Source: Roseomonas aerilata DSM 19363 (GTDB lineage: Bacteria > Pseudomonadota > Alphaproteobacteria > Acetobacterales > Acetobacteraceae). Taken from it: 64,000 bases of DNA. Where the stretch lies: the NCBI RefSeq assembly GCF_000711725.1, contig NZ_JONP01000002.1:124001-188000 (forward strand). The letters run 5' to 3'. Positions 1 through 13,412 of the stretch are shown piece after piece (position 1 is the stretch's first letter; each line of letters opens with the position of its first letter). The notes under the pieces were generated by a model, which was given only the letters and a program-made list of their open reading frames with translations, was not told the origin of the DNA and searched no databases. Both the position numbers and the translations under genes were made by a program.

Positions 1-174
1 CGCCGTGGCCGGCACGTTGCCGGTCAGCGCGTGGACGAGCGAGGTCTTGCCCGCCCCGTTCGGCCCGATCAGCGCGTGCCGTGCCCCCGCCTCGACGCGC
101 AGCGAGACATCGCCCACCGCCGTGAAGTGGCCGTAGCGGAGGGTGAGGCCCTCCGTCTCGATAGCGGGCGTCAT
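1..174 (-). CDS. livG: LivG-type ABC transporter ATP-binding protein (N-terminal part, runs off the left edge)
   Basis: Only the first 58 codons are in the window. The reading begins MTPAIETEGLTLRYGHF and reaches a Walker A loop, GPNGAGKTS, at about residues 38-46. That is the usual position in LivG/BraF-type ATPases of branched-chain amino-acid-type importers. The start ATG overlaps the stop of the upstream LivM gene (ATGA), so translation is probably coupled. It should sit on the cytoplasmic face and drive transport through LivH/LivM. In this operon the cargo is more likely an aromatic acid than leucine; that is inferred from the gallate dioxygenase at the operon head. Confidence 0.9.
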   Translation of the reverse strand, partial: MTPAIETEGLTLRYGHFTAVGDVSLRVEAGARHALIGPNGAGKTSLVHALTGNVPATA

Positions 175-1118
175 TCCCAACCCCGCAGCCGGCGCAGCAG
201 GGCCGAGACGCCGCCCGCGATGCCCCCGCGCAGGACGAAGACCGAGAGCATGAGCACGAGGCCAATCCCGAGATGCCAATATTTCGGGCTCATCGCCGAG
301 AGCGCGTCTTTGAGATAGCTGAAGCCCACGGCGCCCAGCACCACGCCGGGGATGCTGCCCGTGCCCCCAAGGGTCGCCATCATCATCACCTCCGCCGAGC
401 GCTCGAAGCCGAGCATGTCGAGCGAGGCGAAGTTGCTCGTCTGCGCCAGCAGCGCGCCGGCGAGCCCGGCGATCCCACCGGAGATGGTATAGGCCGTGGC
501 GAGGTGGCGGCGCACCGGCGCGCCGATGGCCGGCATGCGCCGCACGTTCTCCCGGATGCCGCGCAGCGCGAGGCCGAAGGGCGAGGTCGTCAGCCGCCAG
601 AGGAAGGCATAGACGAGCACCAGCGCGGCCAGGCTGTACCAGAAGGCCGTCTCCCCCGCGAAGTCGAAGCGGAACAGGCCCAGCACCGGCCCCATGGTGA
701 AGTCCGACATGCCGTCCGCTCCGCCCGTCAGCCAGCGCGCCTGGTTCGCGGCCTCCAGCATCAGGAAGCCGATCCCGAGCGTCACCAGCAGCCGCGTCAG
801 GTCGTTCCCGACCACGACGATGCGCGTGAGCAGCAGCGCGAGCAACCCGCTGAGGAGAAGCGCCGCCAGCAGTCCGACGACCGGCTCCGTCACCCCATGG
901 GCCGCGAGGACGGCAGCGGTATAGGCGCCCATCCCGAAGAACACCGCGTGCCCCAGCGACACCACGCCCGCATGCCCTTGCAGCAGATCATAGGCGAGGG
1001 CGAAGATGGCGAGGATGAACAGCGTGTTCAGCAGGCTGAGGTACTCGGGGAAGAGGAAGAAGCTGGCGACGGCTGCCAGCAGGAGCGGCAGCCCGGCGCC
1101 GATGCGGATCAGCCTCAC
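171..1118 (-). CDS. livM: LivM-type ABC transporter permease
   Basis: A 315-residue, strongly hydrophobic protein of normal LivM length. It carries the family signature around residues 45-65 (DLLQGHAGVVSLGHAVFFGMGAY) and a second conserved stretch near residue 185 (GLALRGIRENVRRMPAIG), the cytoplasmic loop that contacts the ATPase. About 9-10 membrane spans are visible. It would pair with LivH to form the channel. Both ends overlap neighbours by four bases (ATGA), so the order binding protein, livH, livM, livG reads as one tightly packed operon. Substrate specificity cannot be read from the permease itself. Confidence 0.93.
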   Translation of the reverse strand: MRLIRIGAGLPLLLAAVASFFLFPEYLSLLNTLFILAIFALAYDLLQGHAGVVSLGHAVFFGMGAYTAAVLAAHGVTEPVVGLLAALLLSGLLALLLTRIVVVGNDLTRLLVTLGIGFLMLEAANQARWLTGGADGMSDFTMGPVLGLFRFDFAGETAFWYSLAALVLVYAFLWRLTTSPFGLALRGIRENVRRMPAIGAPVRRHLATAYTISGGIAGLAGALLAQTSNFASLDMLGFERSAEVMMMATLGGTGSIPGVVLGAVGFSYLKDALSAMSPKYWHLGIGLVLMLSVFVLRGGIAGGVSALLRRLRGWE

Positions 1119-1983: not shown

Positions 1984-3192
1984 CTACTTCGCGGGGTCCT
2001 TTACGCCCTCGATGGTCTCGAAGGCGATATTGGCCCAGCGGCCATCCCTCTGCTGCCCGCGGCGGATATAGATGCTCTGCACGATGTCGCGCGTGGCGGG
2101 ATCGATGGTGAAGGGCCCGCGCGGGCTGTCGATCCGGGCGCCCTTGATCGCGTTCATGATGGAATCGGCATCGGTCTTGCCGCCCGTCGCCTGCAGGGCG
2201 TGGTAGATCAGCGCCATCCCGTCATAGGCCTGCACGGTGCGGTAGCTCGGCGTCGCATTTGCGCCGGCAACCTCGCGGAAGCCCGTGAGGAAGCGCCTAT
2301 TGGCGGGGTTGTCCAGTTCCACTTGATAATGCAGCGCGGAGATCACGCCGTCCAGCGCGTCGCCCATGGCGGGGATGAGGTTGTCGTCCACCACGTCGCC
2401 CGTCACCAGCAGCTTGATGCCGGCCTGCGACAACCCGCGCTCCTTCGTCTGCTTCATGAAGGCGACGGAGACGTCGCCGCCCGGGTTGAAGCCGAACACC
2501 GCCTCCGGCTTCGCCTCGATGGCGCGCTGGAGGAAGGGCGAGTAGTCCATCGCCGCCACCGGCGTGCGGGCGCCGCCCACTACCTTGCCGCCGCCGGCCT
2601 CGAAGGCCTTGGTGAACCAGGTTTCCGCATCCAGCCCCGGCCCGTAGTCGGAAACGATGGTGAAGACCGTCTTGATCCCGTTGCGCGCCGCCCACTGGCC
2701 GAGCGAGGAGGCGAGCTGCGGCAGCGTCATCGACACGCGCGCGAAATAGGGGGAGCGCTCCGTGATGATGGAGGTCGCGGCATTGATGATGATGCCCGGC
2801 TTCTTCGCCTCCGTCAGGAGTGACGCAGCCGAGAGCGCGTTGGGCGTGAAGCTGTAGCCGAGGATGATCTCCGCCCGGCTGCGCTGGATCAGCTCCTGGG
2901 TCAGGCGGCGGGAGAGGTCGCCCGAGCCCGGCCCCTGGTCGTCGCGCATCACCGTCTCGACCGTGACGTTGCCGACCTTCGTGCCGTGGATCTTCTGGAA
3001 GGTCTTGATGCCCTCCTCGTTGTTGCGGCCCTGGTCGGCGAAGGTGCCGGAGAGCGGCAGGACGACGCCCACGACCAGCTTGCGCTCCTGCGCGATGGCC
3101 GGGCGCGCGAGCGGAAAGGCCGCCGCGGCCGAGGCGGCGAGGAGAACCGAACGCCGCCTGGCCTGGACGGAGGGCTGCTTGCTGCGGGCCAT
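1984..3192 (-). CDS. Periplasmic substrate-binding protein of a branched-chain/aromatic-acid ABC importer
   Basis: Type I periplasmic binding protein (Peripla_BP_6/LivK family), about 402 residues. The start at 3192 is preferred over an upstream in-frame ATG because AAGGAG sits nine bases before it and the upstream codon overlaps the dioxygenase stop. The N-terminus has a twin-arginine-like leader (ARRRSVLLAA, then a hydrophobic stretch and a PAIAQE cleavage region), so Tat export is possible. The mature part begins KLVVGVVLPLSGTFADQGRN, the usual ligand-lobe opening. It lies between a gallate dioxygenase gene and livHMG. LivK-type proteins in such settings often bind aromatic acids; the ligand here is inferred, not shown. 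Confidence 0.9.
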   Translation of the reverse strand: MARSKQPSVQARRRSVLLAASAAAAFPLARPAIAQERKLVVGVVLPLSGTFADQGRNNEEGIKTFQKIHGTKVGNVTVETVMRDDQGPGSGDLSRRLTQELIQRSRAEIILGYSFTPNALSAASLLTEAKKPGIIINAATSIITERSPYFARVSMTLPQLASSLGQWAARNGIKTVFTIVSDYGPGLDAETWFTKAFEAGGGKVVGGARTPVAAMDYSPFLQRAIEAKPEAVFGFNPGGDVSVAFMKQTKERGLSQAGIKLLVTGDVVDDNLIPAMGDALDGVISALHYQVELDNPANRRFLTGFREVAGANATPSYRTVQAYDGMALIYHALQATGGKTDADSIMNAIKGARIDSPRGPFTIDPATRDIVQSIYIRRGQQRDGRWANIAFETIEGVKDPAK

Positions 3193-3237: not shown

Positions 3238-4461
3238 TCAGCGGGCGTCGGGCACTTGCCGCGTGGCGAGGAACTCCTCGAAGGTCTCGCCGCGCATCTC
3301 GGCGTAGACCTCGAGGTTCGAGCGCTGCGCGGTGCGGGCGAACTTCTCGAGCACGAAAAAGTTGGCGCCGTAGCGGATGAGGCCAAGCCAGTCGCGCTCG
3401 AGCACGAGGCGGGTTTCCTCGGGCGTCAGGCCTGCGCGCTCGCAGGCGCCCGCCTCGTCCGCCAGGAAGGCCTCGCGAAAGGCGGTCTCCTTCATGTTCC
3501 AGAAGAAGCGGTTCAGGCGTAGCCGCTCGCGTGCCGTCGAGATATCGAAGGCGTAGGTGCCCTCGATGCTCTCGATACCTTCGAGCTGCGGATTGACCCC
3601 GCTGCCGGGCACGGCCGCGGCATCGCCTTTCTCCTCGAAAACAAGCACCGTCATCGCCGTGGTGGTGGCCAAATAGTAGTTCTGGTGCACCTTCTCTATG
3701 TTGTCGCTGAGCGCGCCGCGCATCGCCAGCCACATGATGACCTCGACGCTCTCCGCGCCGCCCAGGCGGATATAGTCCACGTGCCGCATGCGCGCGAGCG
3801 TCATCGGGTCGTGCTCGATGAGGTCGATGAAGCGCATGTCCCAATCGGTGTCGTTGTAGCCCGTGCGCTCGCCGTGCACCTGGTGCGACAGGCCACCCGT
3901 GCCGACGACGACCACCTTCAGGTCCTCGGGATAGGACTCCACCGCCCGCCGCAACGCCTGTCCGAGCTTGAAGCAGCGCATGGCCGTCGGCAGCGGGTAC
4001 TGCACCACGTTGACCTCGATCGGCACCACTGCCCCCGGCCAGCTCCCCTCATGCGGCCAGAGCAGAGGCAGGGGAGAGAAGACGCCGTGGTCGAGCGGGC
4101 GGTCCTGGAACACTGCCGGATCAAATTCGTCATTCACCAGGCACTCGGCAATGTGCTTGGACAGGCCGGGATGTCCAGGCAGCAAGGGCAGCGGCCGCCG
4201 GCCGGCCCCTTCGTCCGCCACGTCGTAGCTCGGCGCGACCCCCACCGCGAAGGTGGGATAGAGGTCGTAGAAGAAGGCGTTCAGATGGTCGTTGTAGAAG
4301 AAGACGAGAACGTCGGGCTTCTTCTCCTCAAGCCAGCGCCGTGCCGGCTCGTAGCCCTGGAACAGGGGCGCCCAGGCCGGAGCCTCCTGCTTGCCCTTGT
4401 CATAGGCCACCCCGATCGTCGGTACGTGCGACGTCCCGATCCCGCCAATGATCCTGGCCAT
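3238..4461 (-). CDS. galA: Gallate dioxygenase (fused LigB-LigA type extradiol dioxygenase)
   Basis: A 407-residue protein with an N-terminal LigB-like catalytic domain and a C-terminal LigA-like helical domain (from about residue 290), the architecture and length of GalA/DesB. His12 (GTSHVPTIG) and His59 (YNDHLN) fall at the known iron-ligand positions. Catalytic-type histidines appear at 193 and 196 (GLSHQVH), and a conserved acidic pair lies near 237-240. The family opens the gallate ring with O2 to give 4-oxalomesaconate in the cytoplasm. It heads an operon with a binding protein and LivHMG permeases, and a putative LysR operator lies about 130 bp upstream. A protocatechuate 4,5-dioxygenase activity is the main alternative, but the fused form favours gallate. 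Confidence 0.92.
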   Translation of the reverse strand: MARIIGGIGTSHVPTIGVAYDKGKQEAPAWAPLFQGYEPARRWLEEKKPDVLVFFYNDHLNAFFYDLYPTFAVGVAPSYDVADEGAGRRPLPLLPGHPGLSKHIAECLVNDEFDPAVFQDRPLDHGVFSPLPLLWPHEGSWPGAVVPIEVNVVQYPLPTAMRCFKLGQALRRAVESYPEDLKVVVVGTGGLSHQVHGERTGYNDTDWDMRFIDLIEHDPMTLARMRHVDYIRLGGAESVEVIMWLAMRGALSDNIEKVHQNYYLATTTAMTVLVFEEKGDAAAVPGSGVNPQLEGIESIEGTYAFDISTARERLRLNRFFWNMKETAFREAFLADEAGACERAGLTPEETRLVLERDWLGLIRYGANFFVLEKFARTAQRSNLEVYAEMRGETFEEFLATRQVPDAR

Positions 4462-4591
4462 GCCACGCCATCCCTACCCTGCGCCCCAGGCGGTGCGTCG
4501 CCAGGGGCGGCACCGCCCCCGACACCCCAGCCGGGACTGCTATTCTTCGGGCATACCGGCCTGACCGGTAGCCACAAAGAGTGAGATTGGC

Positions 4592-4607
4592 ATCGAAAAC
4601 ACTTATC
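4592..4607 (-). promoter_or_regulatory. Putative LysR-type operator upstream of galA (copy 1 of 3)
   Basis: ATCGAAAACACTTATC. It contains TCGAAAACACTTA, which fits the T-N11-A pattern of LysR boxes. It lies 131 bp before the galA start, in the 171-bp gap between galA and the end of the cysteine hydrolase gene. Near-identical copies are at 5392 and 7930, each upstream of another gene of the same locus. No matching copy was noticed elsewhere in the window by eye. Confidence 0.65.
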
Positions 4608-4632
4608 GGCCAGAGGGCCGACGGGCCGCTGC

Positions 4633-5304
4633 CTAGCGGAGCATCCCGATCATCTCGTCCACCGTCACCACGTCGCCGAAGCTCTGGAACACGGTCGTGA
4701 AGCCGATATTGTGGTCCTCGTCGTAGCGTGCCGCGTTGGCATCGGAAACCATGGCCACGTGATAGTCCAGCATCATCGCGTCGCGCGCCGAGGTCTCGCA
4801 GCAGAAGTTGGTCAGCATGCCCACGATCGCCACGTTGGTGATCCCGCGCTCAGCCAGCTTCTCCGGCAGGTCGGACTTGCCGGGAATGAAGGCGCTGAAA
4901 CGGGATTTCTCCGCCTGGATATCCTCGGGCATGGGCTCGAGGTCCGGGTGCAGCTCGTGGCCAGGGGCGCCGGGGGTGAGGTTGTCGCGGTGCCGCGCGG
5001 CGTTGGCCGGGTTGAAGAAGCGCTCGTGATAGAGCGGCCAGAGGCTCTGCCCGTCGCGGCCGGCCGTCATCTTCACCCAGGCGACGCTCGCGCCCCTGGC
5101 GCGGAAGGTACGGGCCAGGCGGTTGATGTTCGGGACGATGGCGACCGCCGGCGGCACGTCCGTCACGTAGAAGGCCTGCATATCGATGACCACGAGGGCG
5201 GTCTTCGCCGGCTCGAACTGCTCGAAGACGCGGAGCCGGCCGCGCTTGTTCATCACGCGTTCGATGACATAGGCGGGCATCTCGAACGGGGCGGGTTCGG
5301 TCAT
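4633..5304 (-). CDS. Isochorismatase-family cysteine hydrolase
   Basis: About 223 residues when started at MTEPAPFEMP (5304). A longer reading from 5388 would run through the regulatory region, so it is rejected. The isochorismatase fold is clear: ALVVIDMQAFYV near residue 38 carries the catalytic Asp, an ENSRFSAF-like segment (EKSRFSAF) supplies the Lys, and MLTNFCCETSARDAM holds the catalytic Cys. Members hydrolyse amides, imides or isochorismate-type ethers; the substrate here is unknown. It is divergent from the tandem-HTH LysR gene and shares the 5392 operator with it, so it is probably part of the gallate/hydroxybenzoate regulon. Confidence 0.85.
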   Translation of the reverse strand: MTEPAPFEMPAYVIERVMNKRGRLRVFEQFEPAKTALVVIDMQAFYVTDVPPAVAIVPNINRLARTFRARGASVAWVKMTAGRDGQSLWPLYHERFFNPANAARHRDNLTPGAPGHELHPDLEPMPEDIQAEKSRFSAFIPGKSDLPEKLAERGITNVAIVGMLTNFCCETSARDAMMLDYHVAMVSDANAARYDEDHNIGFTTVFQSFGDVVTVDEMIGMLR

Positions 5305-5391
5305 CGTCTCGTCTCGCTCAGGGCTGGGCGGTGTGCGGCCTAGAAAACATTTGCCAGGTGCCGGCGCCCAGCCGAAACTGAACGCCACCCC

Positions 5392-5407
5392 ATCGAAAAC
5401 CCTTATC
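5392..5407. promoter_or_regulatory. Putative LysR-type operator in the divergent hydrolase/regulator promoter (copy 2 of 3)
   Basis: ATCGAAAACCCTTATC, matching the 4592 copy at 15 of 16 positions and keeping the T-N11-A spacing. It sits 88 bp upstream of the cysteine hydrolase start and 17 bp before the likely start of the LysR gene. This is the classic place for autoregulation plus activation of the divergent gene. Confidence 0.65.
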
Positions 5408-5410
5408 CGC

Positions 5411-5418
5411 GGGAGAGG
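5411..5418 (+). promoter_or_regulatory. Shine-Dalgarno that points to an ATC start codon
   Basis: GGGAGAGG lies five bases before ATC at 5424. Between the in-frame stop TGA at 5379 and a GTG at 5478 there is no ATG, GTG or TTG in the regulator's frame, yet the first DNA-binding helices are encoded upstream of 5478. The site therefore supports a rare ATC start. Confidence 0.5.
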
Positions 5419-5423
5419 CCGAG

Positions 5424-6644
5424 ATCACGGCGGCGCCGCACGCCATCAATCCCAAGCATCTCCGCGCCTTCCTCGCCGTGGCGCAGACAGGCAGCGTCGT
5501 CCGCTCCAGCCGGATGGTGCGCCGGGTGCAATCCGCCGTCACCCGCTCTATCCAGGAGCTGGAGAGGGAGCTCGGCGCGCTTCTGTTCGAGCGCCGGCCG
5601 CAGGGGATGCTGCTTACCGGTCTCGGCCGCACGCTGCTGCATCGGGTGGAGCGCGCCTTCGCGGAGATGGAGAGTGCGCGGCAGGGGATTGCCGCCGCCG
5701 GCCCGCCCTCGGGCTGGAACGATCACGCGCCGATCCTATCCCTCTCCCTCGGCCGGCAACGGCTGCTCGCCTTCGCCGAGCTGGTGGAGCAGCGGCACAT
5801 GGGGGCGGTCGCGGACAGCCTGCTGATCTCCCAGCCCGCCGTCAGCCAGGCCCTGCGGGAGGTGGAACTGGGGCTGGGCATCGAGGTCTTCATCCGCTCC
5901 CCCGCGGGGCTGCAGCCAACGCCTCTCGGTGCGCTGCTCGCCCTGCATGTGCGCCGTGCCCTCGCCGAGATCCGCGCGGCGGAGGTGGAGGTCGGCCTTC
6001 TCCAGGGCGCCATGGCCGGGCGCGTCACCGTCGGCACGCTCTCCCTCGGCCGCACGCGCCTCCTGCCGCAGGCCATTATCCACATGCAGGAGAGCCATCC
6101 GAACCTGACGGTCAGCACGGTGGAGGGAAGCTTCGAGCACCTCGCCATGCGCCTCCGCGCGGGCGACATCGACTTCATCCTCGGCGCCCTGCGCTCGCCC
6201 GAGCACACGATCGGCCTCACGCGGGAGACGATCGCGCAGGACGAGCTCGCGATCGTCACGCGCGCCGGCCATCACCTGGCGCAGCGCCCCGATCCGGACT
6301 TCGCCGCCCTGGCCAACGCGCGCTGGGTGCTGCCGCAGCGCGGCACGCCGACGCGCGAGCTGCTGGAAATCGCCCTGCAGGGCCGGGCCCTTCCCACCCC
6401 GCAGGTTGCGGTCGAGACGACGGACCTCGCGATCACGCGCGGCCTGCTCCTTGACAGCGACCTGCTCACCGCCGTCTCGCCGCACCTGTTCCAGCCGGAG
6501 ATCGACGCGGGGCGGCTCGCCATCCTCCCGCTCGACCTGCCGGAGACGCGCCGCGGCATCGGCATCCTGCAACGCGCCGGCGGCAGCCCTTCCCTCGCCG
6601 CGCGGCTGCTGATGAGCAGCATCCGCGCGATCGGCCGCCTCTAG
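5424..6644 (+). CDS. LysR-type regulator with two N-terminal HTH domains (probable gallate-pathway regulator)
   Basis: About 406 residues if initiated at ATC 5424. The first HTH (about residues 8-75) reads INPKHLRAFLAVAQTGSV and ends LLFERRPQGMLLTGLG. A second complete HTH follows (about residues 103-165: RLLAFAELVEQRHMGAVADS, then SQPAVSQALREVELGLGIEVF). The rest is a LysR effector domain. Normal family members have one HTH and about 300 residues. The frame has no ordinary start codon that would include HTH1; the GTG at 5478 would delete its first helix. It is divergent from the cysteine hydrolase, convergent with pobA, and flanked by three copies of a T-N11-A motif. Control of gallate/hydroxybenzoate genes is inferred from context. 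Confidence 0.85.
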   Translation: MTAAPHAINPKHLRAFLAVAQTGSVVRSSRMVRRVQSAVTRSIQELERELGALLFERRPQGMLLTGLGRTLLHRVERAFAEMESARQGIAAAGPPSGWNDHAPILSLSLGRQRLLAFAELVEQRHMGAVADSLLISQPAVSQALREVELGLGIEVFIRSPAGLQPTPLGALLALHVRRALAEIRAAEVEVGLLQGAMAGRVTVGTLSLGRTRLLPQAIIHMQESHPNLTVSTVEGSFEHLAMRLRAGDIDFILGALRSPEHTIGLTRETIAQDELAIVTRAGHHLAQRPDPDFAALANARWVLPQRGTPTRELLEIALQGRALPTPQVAVETTDLAITRGLLLDSDLLTAVSPHLFQPEIDAGRLAILPLDLPETRRGIGILQRAGGSPSLAARLLMSSIRAIGRL

Positions 6645-7822
6645 GGCAGGTCCTTCAGATAGTTCAGCATCACGTACTGCTCGGCGATGGCGGCCTGGGC
6701 GTTGCGCGATCCCGCGACATATTCCAGCTCGGCGAGCTGCAGATTGCGTTGAAGCGGTGAGTGCTCGTCGAAGCGGTGCAGCAACCCTGTCAGCGCGCTG
6801 GAGAAGCGCACCGTCTTCCACACGCGCTCGAGGCAAGTGGCCGAATAGGCCTCCAACGCCGTGCGCGACCCGTCGCGGTAATGGGCCGTCAGCGCGTGGC
6901 TGAGCACCCGGACATCCGCCACCGCCATGTTGAGCCCCTTGGCGCCGGCGGGCGGCACGATGTGCACGGCATCGCCCGCCAGGAAGAGGCGGCCGTGCTG
7001 CATCGGCGCGGCGACGAAGGCGCGCAGCTTCGCGAGGTCTCGCTGGAAGATCTCGCCCTCCGCGATCTCGCTCCGGTCCTCGTCAAACATCCGGGCGTGC
7101 AGTTCCTCCCAGAAGCGGCTGTCGGACCACTCCTCGGGATTCGCGTCGACCGGCACCTGGAGGTAGAGGCGCGACACCTGCATCGAGCGGCGGCTGCACA
7201 GGGCGAAGCCGCGGTCGCTGTTGCTGTAGGTCATGTCCGCCATCGGCCGCGCCCGGGCGAGCACCCCGAGCCAGGCGAAGTCATAGACCTGCTCGAATAG
7301 CGTGATGCGGTCCTGCGGCATCGCGGCGCGGCCGGCACCGTGATAGCCGTCGCAGCCCGCGACAAATTCACAGTCCAGCACACGGCTCTCGCCGCCCTCG
7401 GTGTAGTGGATGCGCGGGCTTTCGGTCTCAATCCCCTCGATCCGCGTCACCTGCGCCTCGAAGATCAGCGGGTCGCCGGCCTCCACCCGCGCGGCCATGA
7501 GGTCCTTCACCACCTCCTGCTGGCCGTAGATCACCACGGAGCGGCCGGTGAGCTCCGGCAGGTCGAGATGGATGGTGCGACCCCGGAAGCGCATGTCCAG
7601 GCCCTCGTCGATCAGCCCTTCGCGCCGCAAGCGGGCGTCGAGGCCGAGCCGCGCCATCGTTTCGACCGTTCCCGGCTCGAGCACGCCCGCGCGCACCCGG
7701 CCCTCGGCGTAGGTGCGGCTGCGCGCCTCCAGAATGACGGAGTCGATCCCCTGCGCCTTCAGCAGATGCGCGAGGAACAGCCCCGCAGGCCCTGCGCCGA
7801 TGATGCCGACCTGTGTTCTCAT
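6641..7822 (-). CDS. pobA: PobA-type 4-hydroxybenzoate 3-monooxygenase, possibly adapted towards protocatechuate/gallate
   Basis: 393 residues starting at MRTQVGIIGAGPAG (7822), one residue shorter than typical PobA. It shows the FAD fingerprint GIIGAGPAGLFLAHLL, the DG motif (AGCDGYHGAGR) and the second FAD motif (LFLAGDAVHIVPPAGAKG). Substrate residues known from PobA are kept: Tyr199 (family Tyr201), Ser210, Arg212, Tyr220 and Tyr383 (family Tyr385). Position 292, equivalent to the family's Thr294, is alanine. The enzyme hydroxylates 4-hydroxybenzoate to protocatechuate with NADPH and O2. The neighbouring gallate dioxygenase makes onward hydroxylation to gallate worth considering. Its stop shares the palindrome CTAG (6641-6644) with the convergent LysR gene. 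Confidence 0.92.
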   Translation of the reverse strand: MRTQVGIIGAGPAGLFLAHLLKAQGIDSVILEARSRTYAEGRVRAGVLEPGTVETMARLGLDARLRREGLIDEGLDMRFRGRTIHLDLPELTGRSVVIYGQQEVVKDLMAARVEAGDPLIFEAQVTRIEGIETESPRIHYTEGGESRVLDCEFVAGCDGYHGAGRAAMPQDRITLFEQVYDFAWLGVLARARPMADMTYSNSDRGFALCSRRSMQVSRLYLQVPVDANPEEWSDSRFWEELHARMFDEDRSEIAEGEIFQRDLAKLRAFVAAPMQHGRLFLAGDAVHIVPPAGAKGLNMAVADVRVLSHALTAHYRDGSRTALEAYSATCLERVWKTVRFSSALTGLLHRFDEHSPLQRNLQLAELEYVAGSRNAQAAIAEQYVMLNYLKDLP

Positions 7823-7929
7823 CGATCCGTCCACGCCACCCTGGTTCCGCTCCGGCCGCGGGGCGGCGAAGGGGTGCAAAATCTGTCCTGCCCGGGGGGA
7901 CCCGGCCAGCGCAAAAAGCCGCAGGGGGG

Positions 7930-7945
7930 ATCGAAATCCCTTATC
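7930..7945 (-). promoter_or_regulatory. Putative LysR-type operator upstream of pobA (copy 3 of 3)
   Basis: ATCGAAATCCCTTATC, differing from the 5392 copy at only two of 16 positions and keeping T-N11-A. It lies 108 bp before the pobA start, between the end of the GST gene and pobA. Copies 1 and 3 also end in ATCG, making a direct repeat of ATCG spaced by nine bases. Confidence 0.6.
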
Positions 7946-7995
7946 GTTTCGGGAGATGGCGCGGCAAGCCTGCGCCGGCCGCGCCGCGGCGAGAC

Positions 7996-8871
7996 CTAAC
8001 CGGCGGGGCTCACCTTATCCTGTGTCTTCGTCTCGAAGTCGCCCGCATCGTGGCGCTCCCAAAGCTGGCCGGAGGGCTCGCCCTGCGTGCGGTTCACCAT
8101 GCGGCCCCGCTTCACGGCCGGGCGCTCCCAGATCATCTCCGCCCAGCGCTGCACGTTTCTGTAGGACTCCACATCGAGGAACTCGGCCGCCCCGTAGTTC
8201 CAGCCCTTCACCAGGCCGCCATACCAGGGCCAGATCGCCATGTCCGCGATCGTGTAGTCGGGGCCGGCGATGTACTCGCTCTCCGCCAGGCGCCGGTCGA
8301 GCACGTCGAGCTGCCGCTTCACCTCCATTGCAAAGCGGTCGATCGGATACTCCATCTTCACGGGCGCATAGGCGTAGAAATGCCCGAAGCCGCCGCCGAG
8401 ATAGGGCGCACTCCCCATCTGCCAGAAGAGCCAGGAGAGGCACTCCGCCCGCGCCGCTCCCCCAGTGGGCAGGAAGGCGCCGAACTTCTCGGCGAGGTAG
8501 ACGAGGATGGCGCCGGACTCGAACACGCGCACCGGCGTCGCGCCGCTCCGGTCCATGAGCGCCGGGATCTTCGAGTTCGGGTTCACGGCGACGAAGCCGC
8601 TGCCGAACTGCTCGCCCTCGCCGATGCGGATGAGCCAGGCGTCGTATTCCGCGCCGCCATGACCGGCGGCGAGGAGCTCCTCCAGCATGACCGTCACCTT
8701 CACCCCGTTCGGCGTGCCCTGGGAATAGAGCTGGAGGGGGTGGCGGCCAACCGGCAGCTCCTTCTCATGCGTCGGCCCGGCGATCGGGCGGTTGATGTTG
8801 GCGAAGCGGCCGCCGCTGGCCTTGTTCCAGGTCCAGACCTTCGGCGGCGTGTACTCGGCGGAATCGCTCAT
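7996..8871 (-). CDS. yghU: YghU-type glutathione S-transferase / disulfide-bond oxidoreductase
   Basis: 291 residues from MSDSAEYTPP (8871), close to the 288 of E. coli YghU. The N-terminal PPKVWTWNKASGGRFANINRPIAG is characteristic of the Nu-class GSTs YghU/YfcG. It is followed by a thioredoxin-like domain (HPLQLYSQGTPNGVKVTVMLEELL, NPNSKIPAL, FESGAILVYLAEKFG) and an all-helical C-terminal domain. The family binds two glutathiones and reduces disulfides or peroxides. It precedes pobA on the same strand, but the pobA operator separates them, so co-transcription is uncertain. Confidence 0.92.
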   Translation of the reverse strand: MSDSAEYTPPKVWTWNKASGGRFANINRPIAGPTHEKELPVGRHPLQLYSQGTPNGVKVTVMLEELLAAGHGGAEYDAWLIRIGEGEQFGSGFVAVNPNSKIPALMDRSGATPVRVFESGAILVYLAEKFGAFLPTGGAARAECLSWLFWQMGSAPYLGGGFGHFYAYAPVKMEYPIDRFAMEVKRQLDVLDRRLAESEYIAGPDYTIADMAIWPWYGGLVKGWNYGAAEFLDVESYRNVQRWAEMIWERPAVKRGRMVNRTQGEPSGQLWERHDAGDFETKTQDKVSPAG

Positions 8872-8994: not shown

Positions 8995-9660
8995 TCAGGC
9001 CACGCGCCGCTCCGCCATGGCCACCTTCGCCGCCGCGCAGGCGGCCTCCACATGCAGAAGGGCGGCCTTGCGCGCCGCTGCCGGCGCTCGCTCCTGGATG
9101 GCGGAGAGGATCGCCCGCATCTCTCGCGCGCTCTCCGGCGCCCGCCCCTGGCGCGACATGGAGCGCGAGCGCAGCAGGTTAATGCGCGCGTGCAGGCCTC
9201 GCAGGATCTCGTCGATCACGGCATTGCCGCAGGCCGCGAGCATCAGGTCATAGAAACGCGCCGTGGCGGCAATCCGACCAAGGGCGTCCTCCGTCGCCAC
9301 CGCCGCCTCGAAGGCCCCCAGCGCCGCCTCCATGGCCTCGCGCTGCGCCGCCGTCGCGCGCCGGGCCGCCAGCGCCGCCGCCTCCCCCTCCAGCAGGCGG
9401 CGCACGTCGTAGATCTGCGCCGCCTCCTCCCAGCTCAGCTCCGTGACGGAGGGGCCGCGGTTCGGGGTGATGACGACCAGCCGCTCCCCCTCCAGCCGTC
9501 GCAGCGCCTCGCGCACCGAGCCGCGGCTGATGCCGAGCAGCCGGCACAGCTCCGCCTCCACCAGCCGCTGCCCCGGTTGGAAATGGCCAGAGACGATCGC
9601 CTCCCGCAGCTTGTCCACCGCCTGGCTCTGGACGCCCTGCGGGGTGACGCGCAGGTCCAT
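8995..9660 (-). CDS. GntR-family (FadR/FCD) transcriptional regulator
   Basis: 221 residues. The N-terminal winged HTH (about residues 10-75) includes GQRLVEAELCRLLGISRGSVREALRRLEGERLV, the standard GntR signature. A C-terminal FCD helical effector domain follows (YDVRRLLEGEAAALAARRAT and later a helical bundle). The ATG overlaps the stop of the upstream barrel gene (ATGA), so both come from one transcript. A 17-bp palindrome of the GntR type lies in the promoter of that transcript (10354), consistent with autoregulation; a second copy is upstream of a TctC receptor. Ligand unknown. Confidence 0.9.
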   Translation of the reverse strand: MDLRVTPQGVQSQAVDKLREAIVSGHFQPGQRLVEAELCRLLGISRGSVREALRRLEGERLVVITPNRGPSVTELSWEEAAQIYDVRRLLEGEAAALAARRATAAQREAMEAALGAFEAAVATEDALGRIAATARFYDLMLAACGNAVIDEILRGLHARINLLRSRSMSRQGRAPESAREMRAILSAIQERAPAAARKAALLHVEAACAAAKVAMAERRVA

Positions 9661-10334
9661 CAGCGGGCGGGCTTCTGCCGCGGGCGGATCGCCTCGAACA
9701 CGCTGTAGCTGCCCTTGAACCAGGGCTCCGCGGCCAGGCGCGCGCGCCAGGGCGTCGCCCGCGCCTTCTCCCGCGCCGGGGAGGAAAGAGCGGCGCGGTC
9801 CGCCAGGTAGTGCAGGGCGAGGCGGTTAAAGGGCAGCGGCTCGCCGTCATTGATGCGGAAGCGGCGCACCATCAGCCAGTCCGGGCTTTCCATCAGCAGC
9901 GGCACGTGGTCCTGCTCGTACCAGGCGTCGAAGTCGGCGAGGCGATCCTCCGGCACCTGGAACCACACGGCGTAGAGCAGCGGGGCGTCCAGCGCGGCTG
10001 GCGCATCCCCCTCGGCGCGGCGGCGGACGGCCATCTCCTGCCCGATATAGCGGGTGAAGCCCGAGACACTGGCCAGCATGTCCCTGGTCAACGCGCTCGG
10101 CTTGCCCTTCACCTCCTCATAGGCTGCGGACCTCAGCACGTCCGGCGCGTCCATCTCGTAGACGGCCAGGAAGCCCTTCGCCCCCTCCCCCGTGTCGCGG
10201 TAGCGCCGGGCGGAGACAAAGCCGGGCACGCCAACGCGGAGCGGGACGTGCTCCTCGTCGTACCAGGCGTGGAATTCCTCCTCGCGGCCCGGCGGCGGCG
10301 TCATCTCGGAAAAGAGGATGGTCGTGCCCTGCAC
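9660..10334 (-). CDS. Tandem dimeric alpha/beta-barrel (EthD-like) protein
   Basis: 224 residues from GTG at 10334, chosen because AGGAGG lies five bases upstream. Two similar ferredoxin-like halves are visible. Each has the motif HAWYDEEHVPLR near residue 20 and DAWYEQDHVPLLM near residue 130, each followed by a VRRF/ARRY strand, so it looks like an internally duplicated EthD/DUF-type barrel. Such proteins act as small monooxygenases, decarboxylases, cyclases or accessory factors. It is translationally coupled to the GntR gene and divergent from a DUF1185/amidohydrolase/hydroxylase operon, so a role in the same degradation pathway is likely. The exact reaction is not recognisable. Confidence 0.8.
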   Translation of the reverse strand: MQGTTILFSEMTPPPGREEEFHAWYDEEHVPLRVGVPGFVSARRYRDTGEGAKGFLAVYEMDAPDVLRSAAYEEVKGKPSALTRDMLASVSGFTRYIGQEMAVRRRAEGDAPAALDAPLLYAVWFQVPEDRLADFDAWYEQDHVPLLMESPDWLMVRRFRINDGEPLPFNRLALHYLADRAALSSPAREKARATPWRARLAAEPWFKGSYSVFEAIRPRQKPAR

Positions 10335-10353
10335 AGGCGCCTCCTGAAGCTTT

Positions 10354-10370
10354 GGATTGTTTGACAATCC
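10354..10370. promoter_or_regulatory. GntR-type palindromic operator (copy 1 of 2)
   Basis: GGATTGTTTGACAATCC is a perfect inverted repeat of seven bases around TTG. It lies in the 84-bp gap between the divergent barrel/gntR operon and the DUF1185 operon and overlaps the TTGACA -35 element of the latter. An identical 17-mer is at 15565. Confidence 0.75.
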
Positions 10371-10389
10371 TATGATGGGGAGGGATGAT
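10361..10389 (+). promoter_or_regulatory. Sigma-70-like promoter for the DUF1185/amidohydrolase operon
   Basis: TTGACA (10361-10366), a 17-bp spacer, then GATGAT (10384-10389). Transcription would begin near 10396, just before the ATG at 10419. The -35 hexamer is inside the palindrome, so a bound GntR protein would block it. Confidence 0.6.
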
Positions 10390-10418
10390 CCCACAACACG
10401 CTTCCGAAGGTCGCCCCG

Positions 10419-11000
10419 ATGCCGCTCGATGTCCGCCGCTGGTCCACCCTCGTCGAGGAGAAGGCCGTGGAGGCCGGGCAGCGCAGCGAGGTTCCGCTCC
10501 GCAAGGTGGCGGCGCTGGCCATCGTCGCCAACCCCCATGCCGGCCGCTACGAGCCCGACCTCTCCGGCGTGATCGCGGACAGCGAGGCGGTCGGCGCCCT
10601 GCTCGCGAAGCTCGCGCTCGAGGCCATGGGCGGCCTGCCCGTCGAGAGCTACGGCAAGGGCGGCGTCGTCGGCCTCGGCGGCGAGCAGGAGCACGCCAAC
10701 GCCATGCTGACCACCACCTTCGCCGAGCCGCTGCGGGTCGCCGTGGGCGGCGCGCTCTCCTGGATCCCCTCCTTCACGAAGGTGGCGGCGCCGGGTGGCA
10801 TCATCGACGTGCCGCTGGCCCACAAGGACGCGCTCTACGTCCGCTCCCACTACGACGGCGTCACGGTCGCCCTGCCGCCGGACGCCCCGGCGCCCGACGA
10901 GGTCGCGCTCATCGTCGTGCTCGCCAATCGCGGGCGGCTGAACGCGCGCGTCGGCGGGCTGAAGGCCGGGGAGATCAGCGCGCGCGACGGGCTGCGCTAG
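10419..11000 (+). CDS. Amino-acid-synthesis family protein (DUF1185/AA_synth)
   Basis: 193 residues. The pattern VEEKAVEAGQRSEVPLRKVAALAIVANPHAGRYEPDL and the later GGVVGLGGEQEHANAMLTTTFAEPLR are typical of DUF1185 (AA_synth). The biochemical role of this family is not well established; members often sit in catabolic clusters with amidohydrolases and flavin monooxygenases, as here. It is the first gene of a plus-strand operon, one base before the amidohydrolase start, under a promoter overlapped by the GntR palindrome. Confidence 0.85.
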   Translation: MPLDVRRWSTLVEEKAVEAGQRSEVPLRKVAALAIVANPHAGRYEPDLSGVIADSEAVGALLAKLALEAMGGLPVESYGKGGVVGLGGEQEHANAMLTTTFAEPLRVAVGGALSWIPSFTKVAAPGGIIDVPLAHKDALYVRSHYDGVTVALPPDAPAPDEVALIVVLANRGRLNARVGGLKAGEISARDGLR

Positions 11001-11001
11001 C

Positions 11002-12198
11002 ATGCGGGTCGCGGTCGTTAATCTCGGGCAGATCGTGACGGGGGACCTCGCCTCCCCCTTCGCCGCGGGGGATTCGATCCTCCTGGAAGCGGGCCGGATC
11101 GCCGCCCTCGGCACGCTGACGGCCGAGCAGGTCTCGGGCGCCGACGTGGTGGTGGACGCGGCGGGCACGGTCGCCATCCCCGGGTTGATCGACAGCCACG
11201 TCCACATCACCTTCGGCGACTACACGCCGCGCCAAAAGGTGGTGGGCTATCTCGAGAGCTACCTGCACGGCGGGACGACCACGGCCATCACCGCCTCCGA
11301 GGTGCATGTCCCCGGGCGGCCGAAGGACCCCGCGGGGGTGAAGGCCCTGGCGCTCGCCGCCCAGGCCTGCTTCCGGGACTACCGGCCGGGCGGCATGCGC
11401 GTGCACGCCGGTTCGGTGATCCTCGAACCTGGCCTGACGGAAGCGGACCTCGCGGAACTGAAGGCGGCCGGCATCTGGCTGGCCAAGGCCGGCTTCGGCG
11501 CCTTCGCCACTCCCTATGACTACGCGCCCCTGATGCGGGCCGCGCGTCGCCTCGGCATGGTCACCACCATGCACACGGGCGGCTCCTCCATCCCCGGCTC
11601 CTCGGGTATCTGGGCGGAGCACGTGCTGGCCGCCGACGCCACCGTCTCCTTCCACGTCAATGGCGGCCCCGTCGCCATGCCGGAGGAGGGCTTCGAGCGG
11701 CTGGTGAAGGAGAGCAGCGTCGCCATGCAGATCTGCACGGCCGGCAATCTCCGCACCGCGCTCAAGACCGCGCGCCTGCTGGACGAAGCCAGGCAGCCCG
11801 AGCGCCTGCTGATCGCGACCGACACGCCCACGGGGAGCGGCATCATGCCACTCGGCATCTTCTACACCATCACCCATCTCGCGAGCCTCGGCGGCATGGC
11901 GCCCGAGCGGGCGATCGCCGCCGCCACCGGCAACAACGCCCGCGTCTACGGGCTGAACAGCGGCTTCCTCGCACCCGGCCGCGACGCCGACCTCGTGCTG
12001 ATCGACGCCTGCGCCGGCGGCGCGCATGACGAGGCCCTGACCGCCATCGCCCATGGCGACGTGCCGGCTGTCGCGGCGGTCTTCACCGACGGCGTGCCGC
12101 GCTTCGTCGGCCGCAGCCGGAATACGCCGGCCTCCATCCGCAACGTGCGGGTGGCCGAATGCCGGCTGCCCATGGATTTCTCGGGGAGCGCGCATTGA
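11002..12198 (+). CDS. Enamidase-like metal-dependent amidohydrolase
   Basis: 398 residues of the amidohydrolase superfamily. The metal motif is PGLIDSHVHITFGDYTPRQ (about residues 60-78). Further ligands are likely in MHTGGSSIPG (His near 190) and the Asp in LLIATDTPTGSG (near 273). A C-terminal composite beta domain closes with FLAPGRDADLVLID. Overall pattern and length resemble enamidase, which opens the ring of tetrahydro-6-oxonicotinate in anaerobic nicotinate breakdown. The substrate here may be another cyclic amide. It overlaps the next gene by one base (TGATG), so the hydroxylase is co-translated. Confidence 0.8.
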   Translation: MRVAVVNLGQIVTGDLASPFAAGDSILLEAGRIAALGTLTAEQVSGADVVVDAAGTVAIPGLIDSHVHITFGDYTPRQKVVGYLESYLHGGTTTAITASEVHVPGRPKDPAGVKALALAAQACFRDYRPGGMRVHAGSVILEPGLTEADLAELKAAGIWLAKAGFGAFATPYDYAPLMRAARRLGMVTTMHTGGSSIPGSSGIWAEHVLAADATVSFHVNGGPVAMPEEGFERLVKESSVAMQICTAGNLRTALKTARLLDEARQPERLLIATDTPTGSGIMPLGIFYTITHLASLGGMAPERAIAAATGNNARVYGLNSGFLAPGRDADLVLIDACAGGAHDEALTAIAHGDVPAVAAVFTDGVPRFVGRSRNTPASIRNVRVAECRLPMDFSGSAH

Positions 12199-13412
12199 TG
12201 AGCCGTTTCAACGCCGCCCCGAGCGTGATCGTCGCGGGGGCGGGGCCGGTCGGCGTCGTCACCGCCCTCGCACTGGCGGATGCCGGCTTTGCGGTCACCC
12301 TCATCGAGGCGGCGGCGGATATCGACCGCAATCCCCGCGCCTCCACCACCCACCCCTCCACGCTCGCCATGATCGAGCGCGTGGGGCTCATCGACCGCTT
12401 CGTGCGCGAGGGCCTCATCGCCCGCTATTTCCAGTTCTGGGACCGCCCTGCCGGGCAGAAGGTGGCCGAGTTCGACCACCAGATCCTCGCGGACGACACC
12501 CCCTTCCCCTTCGTGGTGCAGACCGAGCAGCACAAGCTCGCCCGCATGGGCCTCGACCGGCTGGCGACGCTGCCCAACGCCACGATCCGCATGAACACCG
12601 GCCTGACCGCGCTGGAGCAGAACGCGGATGGCGTCACCGTCACCCTGCCGGACGGCGAGAGGCTGCGCGCCGACTGGCTGGTGGGCGCCGATGGCGGCCG
12701 CTCCACCGTGCGCAAGGCGCTCGACATCGAGTTCGAGGGCTACACCTGGCCCGAGCGCTTCATCGTGCTGACCGTCACCGACGACTTCGAGGCGATGCTC
12801 GGCTGCTGCCTCAGGAACTACTTCGCCGATCCCGACGAGTGGGCCAACCTCTTCAAGGTGGCCGGCGACGGCCAGGGCCCGCTCTGGCGCGCGGTCTTCC
12901 CCACGCGGCAGGACGAGCCCGACGAGGAGGCGCTCTCCGATGAGGGCGCGGAGCGGCGCCTGCAGGGGCTGCACCCGAAACCCGGCCGCTACGACCTCGT
13001 GCACCGCAACCTCTACAAGGTGCACCAGCGCGTGGCGAAGAGCTTCCGGCAGGGCCGCGTCTTCCTCGCGGGCGATGCGGGCCACGTGAACAACCCCATC
13101 GGCGGGCTGGGGCTGAACTTCGGCATCCACGACGCCATGGACCTCGCGGACACGCTCTCCGCCCATGTCTTCGGCGGCGCCGATGCCGCGCTGCTCGACG
13201 GCTACGAGCGCCGTCGCCGCACGCTGAACATCGAGTTCGTCCAGCAACAGACAATCGCGAACAAGAAGCGGCTGGAGGAGAAGGACCCGGCCCGGCGCCG
13301 CGCCAGCCTGGACGCGCTGGCCGAGACCGCCGCCGATCCCGTGAAGGCCCGCGAGTTCCTCCTGCGCAGCTCGCTGATCGGCAGCACCCGTCAGGCCGCC
13401 GCCATGGCCTGA
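12198..13412 (+). CDS. FAD-dependent aromatic hydroxylase (PHBH/MhpA-like group A monooxygenase)
   Basis: 404 residues from ATG 12198, which overlaps the amidohydrolase stop. It shows the Rossmann fingerprint VIVAGAGPVGVVTALALADAG, the DG motif LVGADGGRSTVRKAL (near 155) and the GD motif RVFLAGDAGHVNNPIGGLGLNFGIHD (near 285). The latter has NN in place of the usual PP. The C-terminal thioredoxin-like domain of longer MhpA/TfdB proteins is absent. It should hydroxylate an aromatic or heteroaromatic ring with NAD(P)H and O2. The amidohydrolase beside it hints at an N-heterocycle, but that is inference. Confidence 0.88.
   Translation: MSRFNAAPSVIVAGAGPVGVVTALALADAGFAVTLIEAAADIDRNPRASTTHPSTLAMIERVGLIDRFVREGLIARYFQFWDRPAGQKVAEFDHQILADDTPFPFVVQTEQHKLARMGLDRLATLPNATIRMNTGLTALEQNADGVTVTLPDGERLRADWLVGADGGRSTVRKALDIEFEGYTWPERFIVLTVTDDFEAMLGCCLRNYFADPDEWANLFKVAGDGQGPLWRAVFPTRQDEPDEEALSDEGAERRLQGLHPKPGRYDLVHRNLYKVHQRVAKSFRQGRVFLAGDAGHVNNPIGGLGLNFGIHDAMDLADTLSAHVFGGADAALLDGYERRRRTLNIEFVQQQTIANKKRLEEKDPARRRASLDALAETAADPVKAREFLLRSSLIGSTRQAAAMA

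Follow-up and report, generated by a model that had tools for sequence, protein, structure and literature searches.

The three 16-mers and their genes

A 64,000-nucleotide stretch of the genome of Roseomonas aerilata DSM 19363 (hereafter the window) contains a gallate dioxygenase gene (galA), a hydrolase gene, a divergent gene for a LysR-type regulator with two helix-turn-helix (HTH) domains and a PobA-family hydroxylase gene, with three near-identical 16-mers in the promoter regions of these genes. An earlier note, made from the sequence, had placed the 16-mers at 4592, 5392 and 7930 on the plus strand and had fitted them to the T-N11-A pattern. Both points were borne out, with T at position 2 and A at position 14 of each 16-mer, and the gene assignments at the motifs (galA dioxygenase, hydrolase, tandem-HTH LysR and PobA-family hydroxylase) held in Pfam and NCBIfam comparisons. 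Species counts below refer to six carrier genomes, a carrier being a family genome with the tandem-HTH LysR at E <= 1e-60 (397 family genomes were searched): the window genome, Roseomonas KE2513, AT-5844, R. populi, P. indoligenes and G013.

4592-4607, plus strand: putative operator right half, resembling a regulatory binding site (RBS), ATCGAAAACACTTATC; 130 nt upstream of the start of galA; at this promoter in 4 of 6 species
5392-5407, plus strand: putative operator right half, ATCGAAAACCCTTATC; 87 nt from the hydrolase gene and 16 nt to the LysR ATC; 6 of 6 species
7930-7945, plus strand: putative operator right half, ATCGAAATCCCTTATC; 107 nt upstream of the start of pobA; 6 of 6 species (G013 with 2 mismatches)
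3238-4461, minus strand: galA, fused LigB-LigA gallate dioxygenase, first gene of its operon; NF009904, 555.6 bits against a cut-off of 412
4633-5304, minus strand: isochorismatase-family hydrolase; PF00857, no NCBIfam model over cut-off
5424-6644, plus strand: LysR regulator with two HTH domains; PF00126 in two stretches and PF03466; start taken as ATC 5424
6641-7822, minus strand: PobA-family hydroxylase with a D72/L75/M199/A294 pocket; NF006091, 537 against a cut-off of 351

By the NF009904 cut-off, galA belongs to the gallate dioxygenases, and none of the six carriers has a second PF02900 match at E <= 1e-10. Its best relative in the PDB was DesB/GalA (3wku), likewise a fused LigB-LigA protein, with 445 bits over residues 1-402 of 407; unlike that of DesB/GalA, the gene lies in an ABC-transporter operon and not in galTAP.

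A scan of the window at up to 3 mismatches returned only the three 16-mers, compared to a mean of 0.20 and a maximum of 2 in 100 shuffles. The whole genome (6,428,469 bases in 151 contigs) yielded five matches to ATCGAAAWCMCTTATC at up to 2 mismatches, of which the three window 16-mers, all inside 3.4 kb, were the only exact ones; the other two, each with 2 mismatches, fell within long open reading frames (ORFs) and were rejected as regulon members. A reversed control pattern of ATCGAAAWCMCTTATC gave no match in the whole genome at the same limit. The window shuffles and the genome-wide rarity led to rejection of chance repetition, and the three 16-mers are real repeats. As the motif was rare, with only three exact copies, rather than common at random genome positions, the regulon proposal of the earlier note was not refuted.

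A probable two-part operator and its proposed GalR-like regulator

Alignment of the promoters of the six carriers gave the pattern aGCsnAAAA, a 13-bp gap and (A/T)TCGAAA-N3-CTTATc. The left part supplied a second predicted half at each window site.

4570-4579, plus strand: putative operator left half, resembling an activation binding site (ABS), AGCCACAAAG; starts 22 bp left of the galA-side 16-mer
5370-5379, plus strand: putative operator left half, AGCCGAAACT; CGAAACT invariant in 6 of 6 species
7908-7917, plus strand: putative operator left half, AGCGCAAAAA; from the promoter alignment

The conserved core had been described as longer than a usual LysR box, which did not hold: it is a normal T-N11-A site, and judging from the alignment the length comes from a two-part operator whose second half starts 22 bp to the left. 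KE2513 being almost the same as the window, its three sites were dropped and columns counted over the remaining 15 sites. TCGAAA and CTTAT were invariant in all 15, and a left-half AAA was present at -17 to -15 or -16 to -14 in 13. The ATAAG end of the sites was directed away from the proposed target, with the A-rich second half on the target side and 20 to 21 bp (about two helical turns) from the right half's own AAA tract. The element was present at orthologous promoters: at that of the hydrolase and LysR genes in six of six species, at that of pobA in six of six (ATCGAAACTGCTTATC in G013) and at that of galA in four of six. R. populi and P. indoligenes each had one other copy (L056:4782-4797 and L057:4990-5005), with an SBP_bac_5 gene to the left and a 2Fe-2S protein gene to the right by Pfam, followed on the right by ORFs judged by eye to be molybdenum-hydroxylase-like. 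Among the six genomes, only these two had an orthologue of the SBP protein (94 to 100%), the best match in the others being 55 to 58%. Over the three promoters (of 6, 6 and 4 species), 39 of 48 columns of the 16-mers were invariant compared to 43 of 255 in the flanks, a comparison favoured by the use of the motif to locate the sites. Unguided MAFFT alignment of the hydrolase/LysR promoter from five genomes recovered the same conserved block, and the synonymous divergence in HTH1, the first HTH domain, was 0.59 to 0.97 (eight computed pairs, window-KE2513 excluded).

The regulator is of the LysR type by its HTH_1 and LysR_substrate domains. No NCBIfam model was over cut-off for it; the best was PcaQ (TIGR02424), to which its membership was rejected at 211.2 bits against a cut-off of 303.8. 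The best stretch of this match covered HTH2 and the effector domain, and an extra HTH in front distinguishes the protein from PcaQ. A tblastn search of plasmids with the LysR gave 118 records, all below 60% identity, of which three were opened. The homologue on a P. oryzihabitans plasmid (42.5% identity, covering 94% of the query) is flanked by galB and a porin gene, and the gal cluster to which it belongs also has genes for an aromatic-acid transporter, gallate dioxygenase, a tautomerase and an aldolase; a second (46.7%) lies near a gallate dioxygenase gene. Because these homologues lie in a gal cluster or near a gallate dioxygenase gene, the LysR is, on homology, a GalR-like protein, the Pseudomonas protein compared being the P. 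oryzihabitans gal-cluster LysR; linkage to galA in six of six carrier genomes places it likewise. The tandem HTH is not peculiar to the window genome as far as alignments indicate and also appears in the Pseudomonas gal-cluster LysR: 39 of 58 loci matched the LysR from residue 12 or earlier to residue 386 or later, in a set selected by search patterns that lay in HTH1. Among the papers listed in a literature search, no treatment of tandem-HTH LysR proteins was recognized, and absence from print is not claimed.

In the passages of PMC9942251 and PMC12314914 that concern GalR, the Pseudomonas protein activates galA in response to 4-oxalomesaconate. The former concludes that this compound is the effector, predicts an RBS and an ABS and calls the GalR sites uncharacterised; the latter gives a predicted RBS, ATAAANAAANNGNAT, in P. 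putida KT2440 and an RBS-like ATAAGTAAAAAGTAT, with no clear ABS, in Pseudomonas sp. NGC7. The reverse complement of the window site, ATAAGGGTTTTCGAT, has the same length as ATAAANAAANNGNAT and ATAAGTAAAAAGTAT and shares ATAAG-N8-AT with that of NGC7. As described in those passages, the Pseudomonas GalR is likewise a LysR activator divergent from a target and has gallate dioxygenase and a transporter among its targets, its site is likewise a T-N11-A element of 15 nt with ATAAG (NGC7) or ATAAA (KT2440) and AT ends, and KT2440, unlike NGC7, likewise has a predicted second activation site. The targets proposed here differ from those described in Pseudomonas: they are galA together with genes for a Liv-type ABC transporter, the isochorismatase-family hydrolase gene and a gene of the PobA family, whereas galB- and galC-like genes lie elsewhere without a site, and the other half-site (CGAAA) also differs. 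This likeness of sites supports, at the level of sequence, homology with the Pseudomonas GalR sites as published. The whole is judged to be a variant of the GalR system and not a system of a new kind.

Co-occurrence of the box and the regulator was examined across the family, the 397-genome draws of the LysR and motif searches being taken as the same set. Exact WTCGAAAWNSCTTATC was present in 13 of 397 genomes, comprising all six carriers (12 places) and 7 of 391 others, with one place each (Fisher, 3e-10); this test is partly circular, as WTCGAAAWNSCTTATC was widened after the orthologous sites had been seen, which does not apply to the scan of the window's own genome. At the offset of the left half, none of the seven non-carrier matches had A-rich sequence (in L126, GAGAAG is shifted by one base), and the 2 to 3 kb around each contained no relative of 14 window proteins. 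Among 15 genomes of the same genus, the box was present at up to 1 mismatch in all 5 LysR carriers and in 2 of the 10 remaining genomes. Single matches in G002 and in G009 lay within ORFs or beside unrelated-looking ORFs and were rejected, as was an off-target KE2513 match (G010:C45) as a regulon member, all on surroundings judged by eye. Among 17 genomes of its genus that were searched, G143 was the sole carrier. Six loci of distant double-HTH relatives (30 to 38% identity) gave 11 scattered matches, all with 3 mismatches, and 24 further loci (L012-L035) gave none at up to 3 mismatches with a narrower window pattern; the box is therefore not shown for the wider double-HTH family. Weak, uncounted copies were detected in a 49% relative (L070; two 3-mismatch copies, mutually facing, before galA) and in Bradyrhizobium dw_411 (65%). 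In the latter, a 2-mismatch copy (L069:8591-8606) sits beside a syntenic galA-hydrolase-LysR-pobA locus and points to a group of MBL-fold/ABC genes; pobA and the LysR gene are preceded by looser ATCTAA-N4-GTTAT sequences.

Overall, it is highly probable from sequence comparison that one regulator, the tandem-HTH LysR, acts through one operator on one regulon, which would serve the degradation of plant phenolic acids. This reading is supported because the motif is rare elsewhere in the genome and present at orthologous promoters, and it stands given the likeness of the LysR to GalR, the activator of the Pseudomonas gallate pathway. The proposal of the earlier note that the motif ties the operon, the hydrolase and the hydroxylase to one regulator thus has sequence support, with a reservation for the operon, since the galA site is missing from R. 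populi and P. indoligenes. Besides that absence and the circularity noted above, several points weigh against a single regulon. The six carrier species are related to one another; AGAA replaces the left-half AAA in 2 of the 15 sites (transporter promoter); and the reversed control of WTCGAAAWNSCTTATC occurred in 2 of 397 genomes, the true pattern in 7 of 391 non-carriers. In the passages cited, the Pseudomonas sites are themselves predictions, and no gal gene is annotated within 7 kb of the third opened plasmid homologue (Caballeronia, 44%). The box was not found at up to 2 mismatches in an 18-kb stretch with the later pathway genes, nor a sigma-70-like promoter by consensus in 4450-5480 or 7700-8100, and a terminator-like stem (4605-4622, minus strand) has a T-rich tail that overlaps the galA operator.

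The 16-mers could instead be sites of another regulator, for example a different LysR protein or the GntR protein encoded at 8995-9660. Binding by the tandem-HTH LysR is itself predicted from sequence, the genome has many LysR genes (at least 31 matches at E <= 0.001, with 30 of 77 candidates scored) and the GntR gene is nearby, but the box and the tandem-HTH LysR co-occur across the family as described, one site lies in the divergent promoter of that LysR in six of six species, and local BLAST detected no GntR relative in the locus stretches of the relatives, the rest of their genomes not being searched; this alternative is accordingly very unlikely. It is scarcely credible that the 16-mers are copies of a terminator, a repeat or some other structural or mobile piece of DNA with no regulatory meaning. 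The stem adjoining the galA site speaks for this, but it has no counterpart at 7700-8100 and another (5353-5372) does not adjoin the 16-mer at 5392, so that a terminator element was rejected; moreover, orientation and second-half spacing are kept at four different promoters and the genome holds no additional exact copies.

The gal-linked PobA and the LysR start codon

In a tree of PobA proteins, the gal-linked copies of the six carriers and that of Bradyrhizobium dw_411 formed a clade with 100/100 support on a stem of 0.67. D72, L75, M199 and A294 were present in 7 of 7 gal-linked copies and in none of 12 other rows, which had H72 (E in one), V, I or F at 75, L199 and T294; of 279 plasmid records, 4 entered this comparison. 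Every carrier also encodes a PobA that retains H72, L199 and T294, residue 212 being Thr in two of these proteins. Two further PobAs, one with an internal stop, are present in the window genome: the third, L149 (G000:C36:20114-21280), is over the equivalog cut-off and has an internal TAG. Protocatechuate-active PobA mutants carry different combinations of changes at 199, 294 and 385, with 385 altered in all those named in the relevant part of PMC9063093, and XaPobA, of natural clade F, departs from standard PobA at 72, 75, 199, 201, 210 and 385 in the corresponding part of PMC10770758. The four changes of the gal-linked pocket thus occupy positions that in other PobAs influence the formation of gallate.

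These substitutions suggested that the gal-linked PobA may supply gallate from protocatechuate, a possibility that falls short of an even chance and is weakened because Tyr385 is kept. A label of "hydroxybenzoate" for this part of the regulon, as first proposed, is doubtful since this PobA lineage has a changed pocket and may feed gallate. The enzyme could instead be an ordinary 4-hydroxybenzoate 3-hydroxylase in which the pocket changes reflect drift or tuning, protocatechuate being used by GalA or another enzyme, and this explanation comes close to an even chance. The protein retains Tyr201, Leu210, Ser212, Arg214, Tyr222 and Tyr385 and passes the subfamily model NF006091, whereas natural clade F protocatechuate hydroxylases, as described in PMC10770758, carry Trp201, Met210 and Phe385, for which reason clade F membership was rejected, and the named engineered mutants all alter 385. 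It missed the equivalog model for 4-hydroxybenzoate 3-monooxygenase, TIGR02360 (492.8 to 493.1 against 538.7 bits), which does not discriminate because 11 of 13 PobA matches in the six genomes also miss; furthermore, 4 to 9 PF00775 matches per genome could include protocatechuate-using enzymes. Against an ordinary PobA stand the fixation of all four changes on a fully supported branch and the retention of another PobA in all six genomes. The clade F PobA of Xylophilus ampelinus, a protocatechuate 5-hydroxylase, belongs to the same family and is likewise non-standard at 72, 75 and 199; in the account of PMC10770758 it has M72, I75, V199 and T294, in contrast to the residues of the gal-linked copies, which differ further in retaining Tyr201, Leu210 and Tyr385.

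The start of the LysR gene was also unusual. The ORF in the window genome and KE2513 opens after a stop just upstream of the operator, and no ATG, GTG or TTG occurs in any frame between the operator and HTH1 in these two genomes. Five of six species have an ATC 16 to 17 nt downstream of the operator, preceded by a GGAG-type sequence; in G013 it is absent. In the window this sequence is as follows.

5411-5418, plus strand: Shine-Dalgarno-like GGGAGAGG, preceding the ATC at 5424-5426; presumed role in initiation

Only the window genome, KE2513 and R. populi are closed cases because the others have upstream options: an in-frame TTG just before the operator in AT-5844, a GTG further up in P. indoligenes and a frame open far upstream in G013. 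Among more distant loci, 33 of 34 had ATG, GTG or TTG near the HTH1 start (L098 was at a contig edge). HTH1 was under purifying selection in 9 of 9 computed pairs (of 15 possible), with dN of 0.01 to 0.15 and dS of 0.23 to 0.97, and therefore HTH1 is very likely translated. An ordinary downstream start leaving the first HTH untranslated could use an in-frame GTG at 5478 or ATG at 5664, but that selection and the replacement of GTG 5478 by GTC in R. populi and P. indoligenes make it most improbable. Among the papers listed in a literature search, none was recognized as describing an AUC or other non-canonical start for a LysR gene, and absence from print is not claimed.

Neighbouring genes and the proposed gallate circuit

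The operon of galA and the surrounding genes comprise the following further features.

1984-3192, minus strand: ABC substrate-binding protein of the galA operon; PF13458
1115-1978, minus strand: ABC permease, LivH type, named from sequence
171-1118, minus strand: ABC permease, LivM type, named from sequence
8995-9660: GntR protein (GntR/FCD regulator)

An ATPase-like ORF that starts at 174 crosses the left edge of the window and is followed by a second ATPase-like ORF and a creatininase-family gene. The creatininase-family gene (L055:5887-6723) and the isochorismatase-family gene accompany the gallate operon. A gene for a glutathione-dependent disulfide-bond oxidoreductase (NF008731) lies beyond the pobA site, and the next gene group (window 8995-13412) encodes the GntR/FCD regulator, an AA_synth protein, an amidohydrolase and an FAD monooxygenase.

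Candidates for the rest of the pathway lie elsewhere. A cluster on contig C12 (L204:4275-10517, G000:C12) encodes a LigK/GalC aldolase over cut-off, an amidohydrolase and a PIG-L protein that shares 56% identity with the protein annotated as GalB in the P. oryzihabitans cluster. A shorter LysR (335 aa) is encoded nearby, and this cluster lies in the 18-kb stretch in which the box was not found. LigK was over cut-off in five of six carriers (302.1 against 304.5 in G013), and PrpF (GalD-like) genes were detected in five of six genomes, away from the locus.

In the mechanism that we propose, the GalR-type LysR encoded between the three 16-mers binds them as regulatory sites and would sit on the right half of the operator. 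Ring cleavage of gallate would yield 4-oxalomesaconate, altering the contact of GalR with the second half, and GalR would then activate galA together with the ABC transporter genes, the hydrolase gene and pobA. The central site would also let GalR limit its own gene, and the ATC (AUC) start may keep GalR scarce. The supply of gallate from protocatechuate by the gal-linked PobA would be the least certain step and lies outside the high probability given to the single regulon. A closed gallate circuit, in which an ordinary PobA forms protocatechuate, the gal-linked PobA converts it to gallate, GalA opens the ring and 4-oxalomesaconate acts on an AUC-started GalR, is a tentative proposal that is rather doubtful as a whole.

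These analyses propose a GalR operator with cross-species support, where the Pseudomonas sites are called uncharacterised in the GalR passages of PMC9942251, and add a PobA-family gene to a gallate regulon; what makes them of interest is the PobA lineage together with the AUC start. A conserved AUC start, if true, would mean that gene callers limited to ATG, GTG and TTG misplace the start of this regulator across a clade. Gallate-making forms of PobA are sought for metabolic engineering according to the pertinent part of PMC9063093, and the physiological role of the natural protocatechuate hydroxylase is described as unknown in that of PMC10770758. If the gal-linked PobA does make gallate, a natural protocatechuate 5-hydroxylase would have a testable catabolic role, and the gal-linked pocket would be a second solution to the same protocatechuate-hydroxylating reaction.

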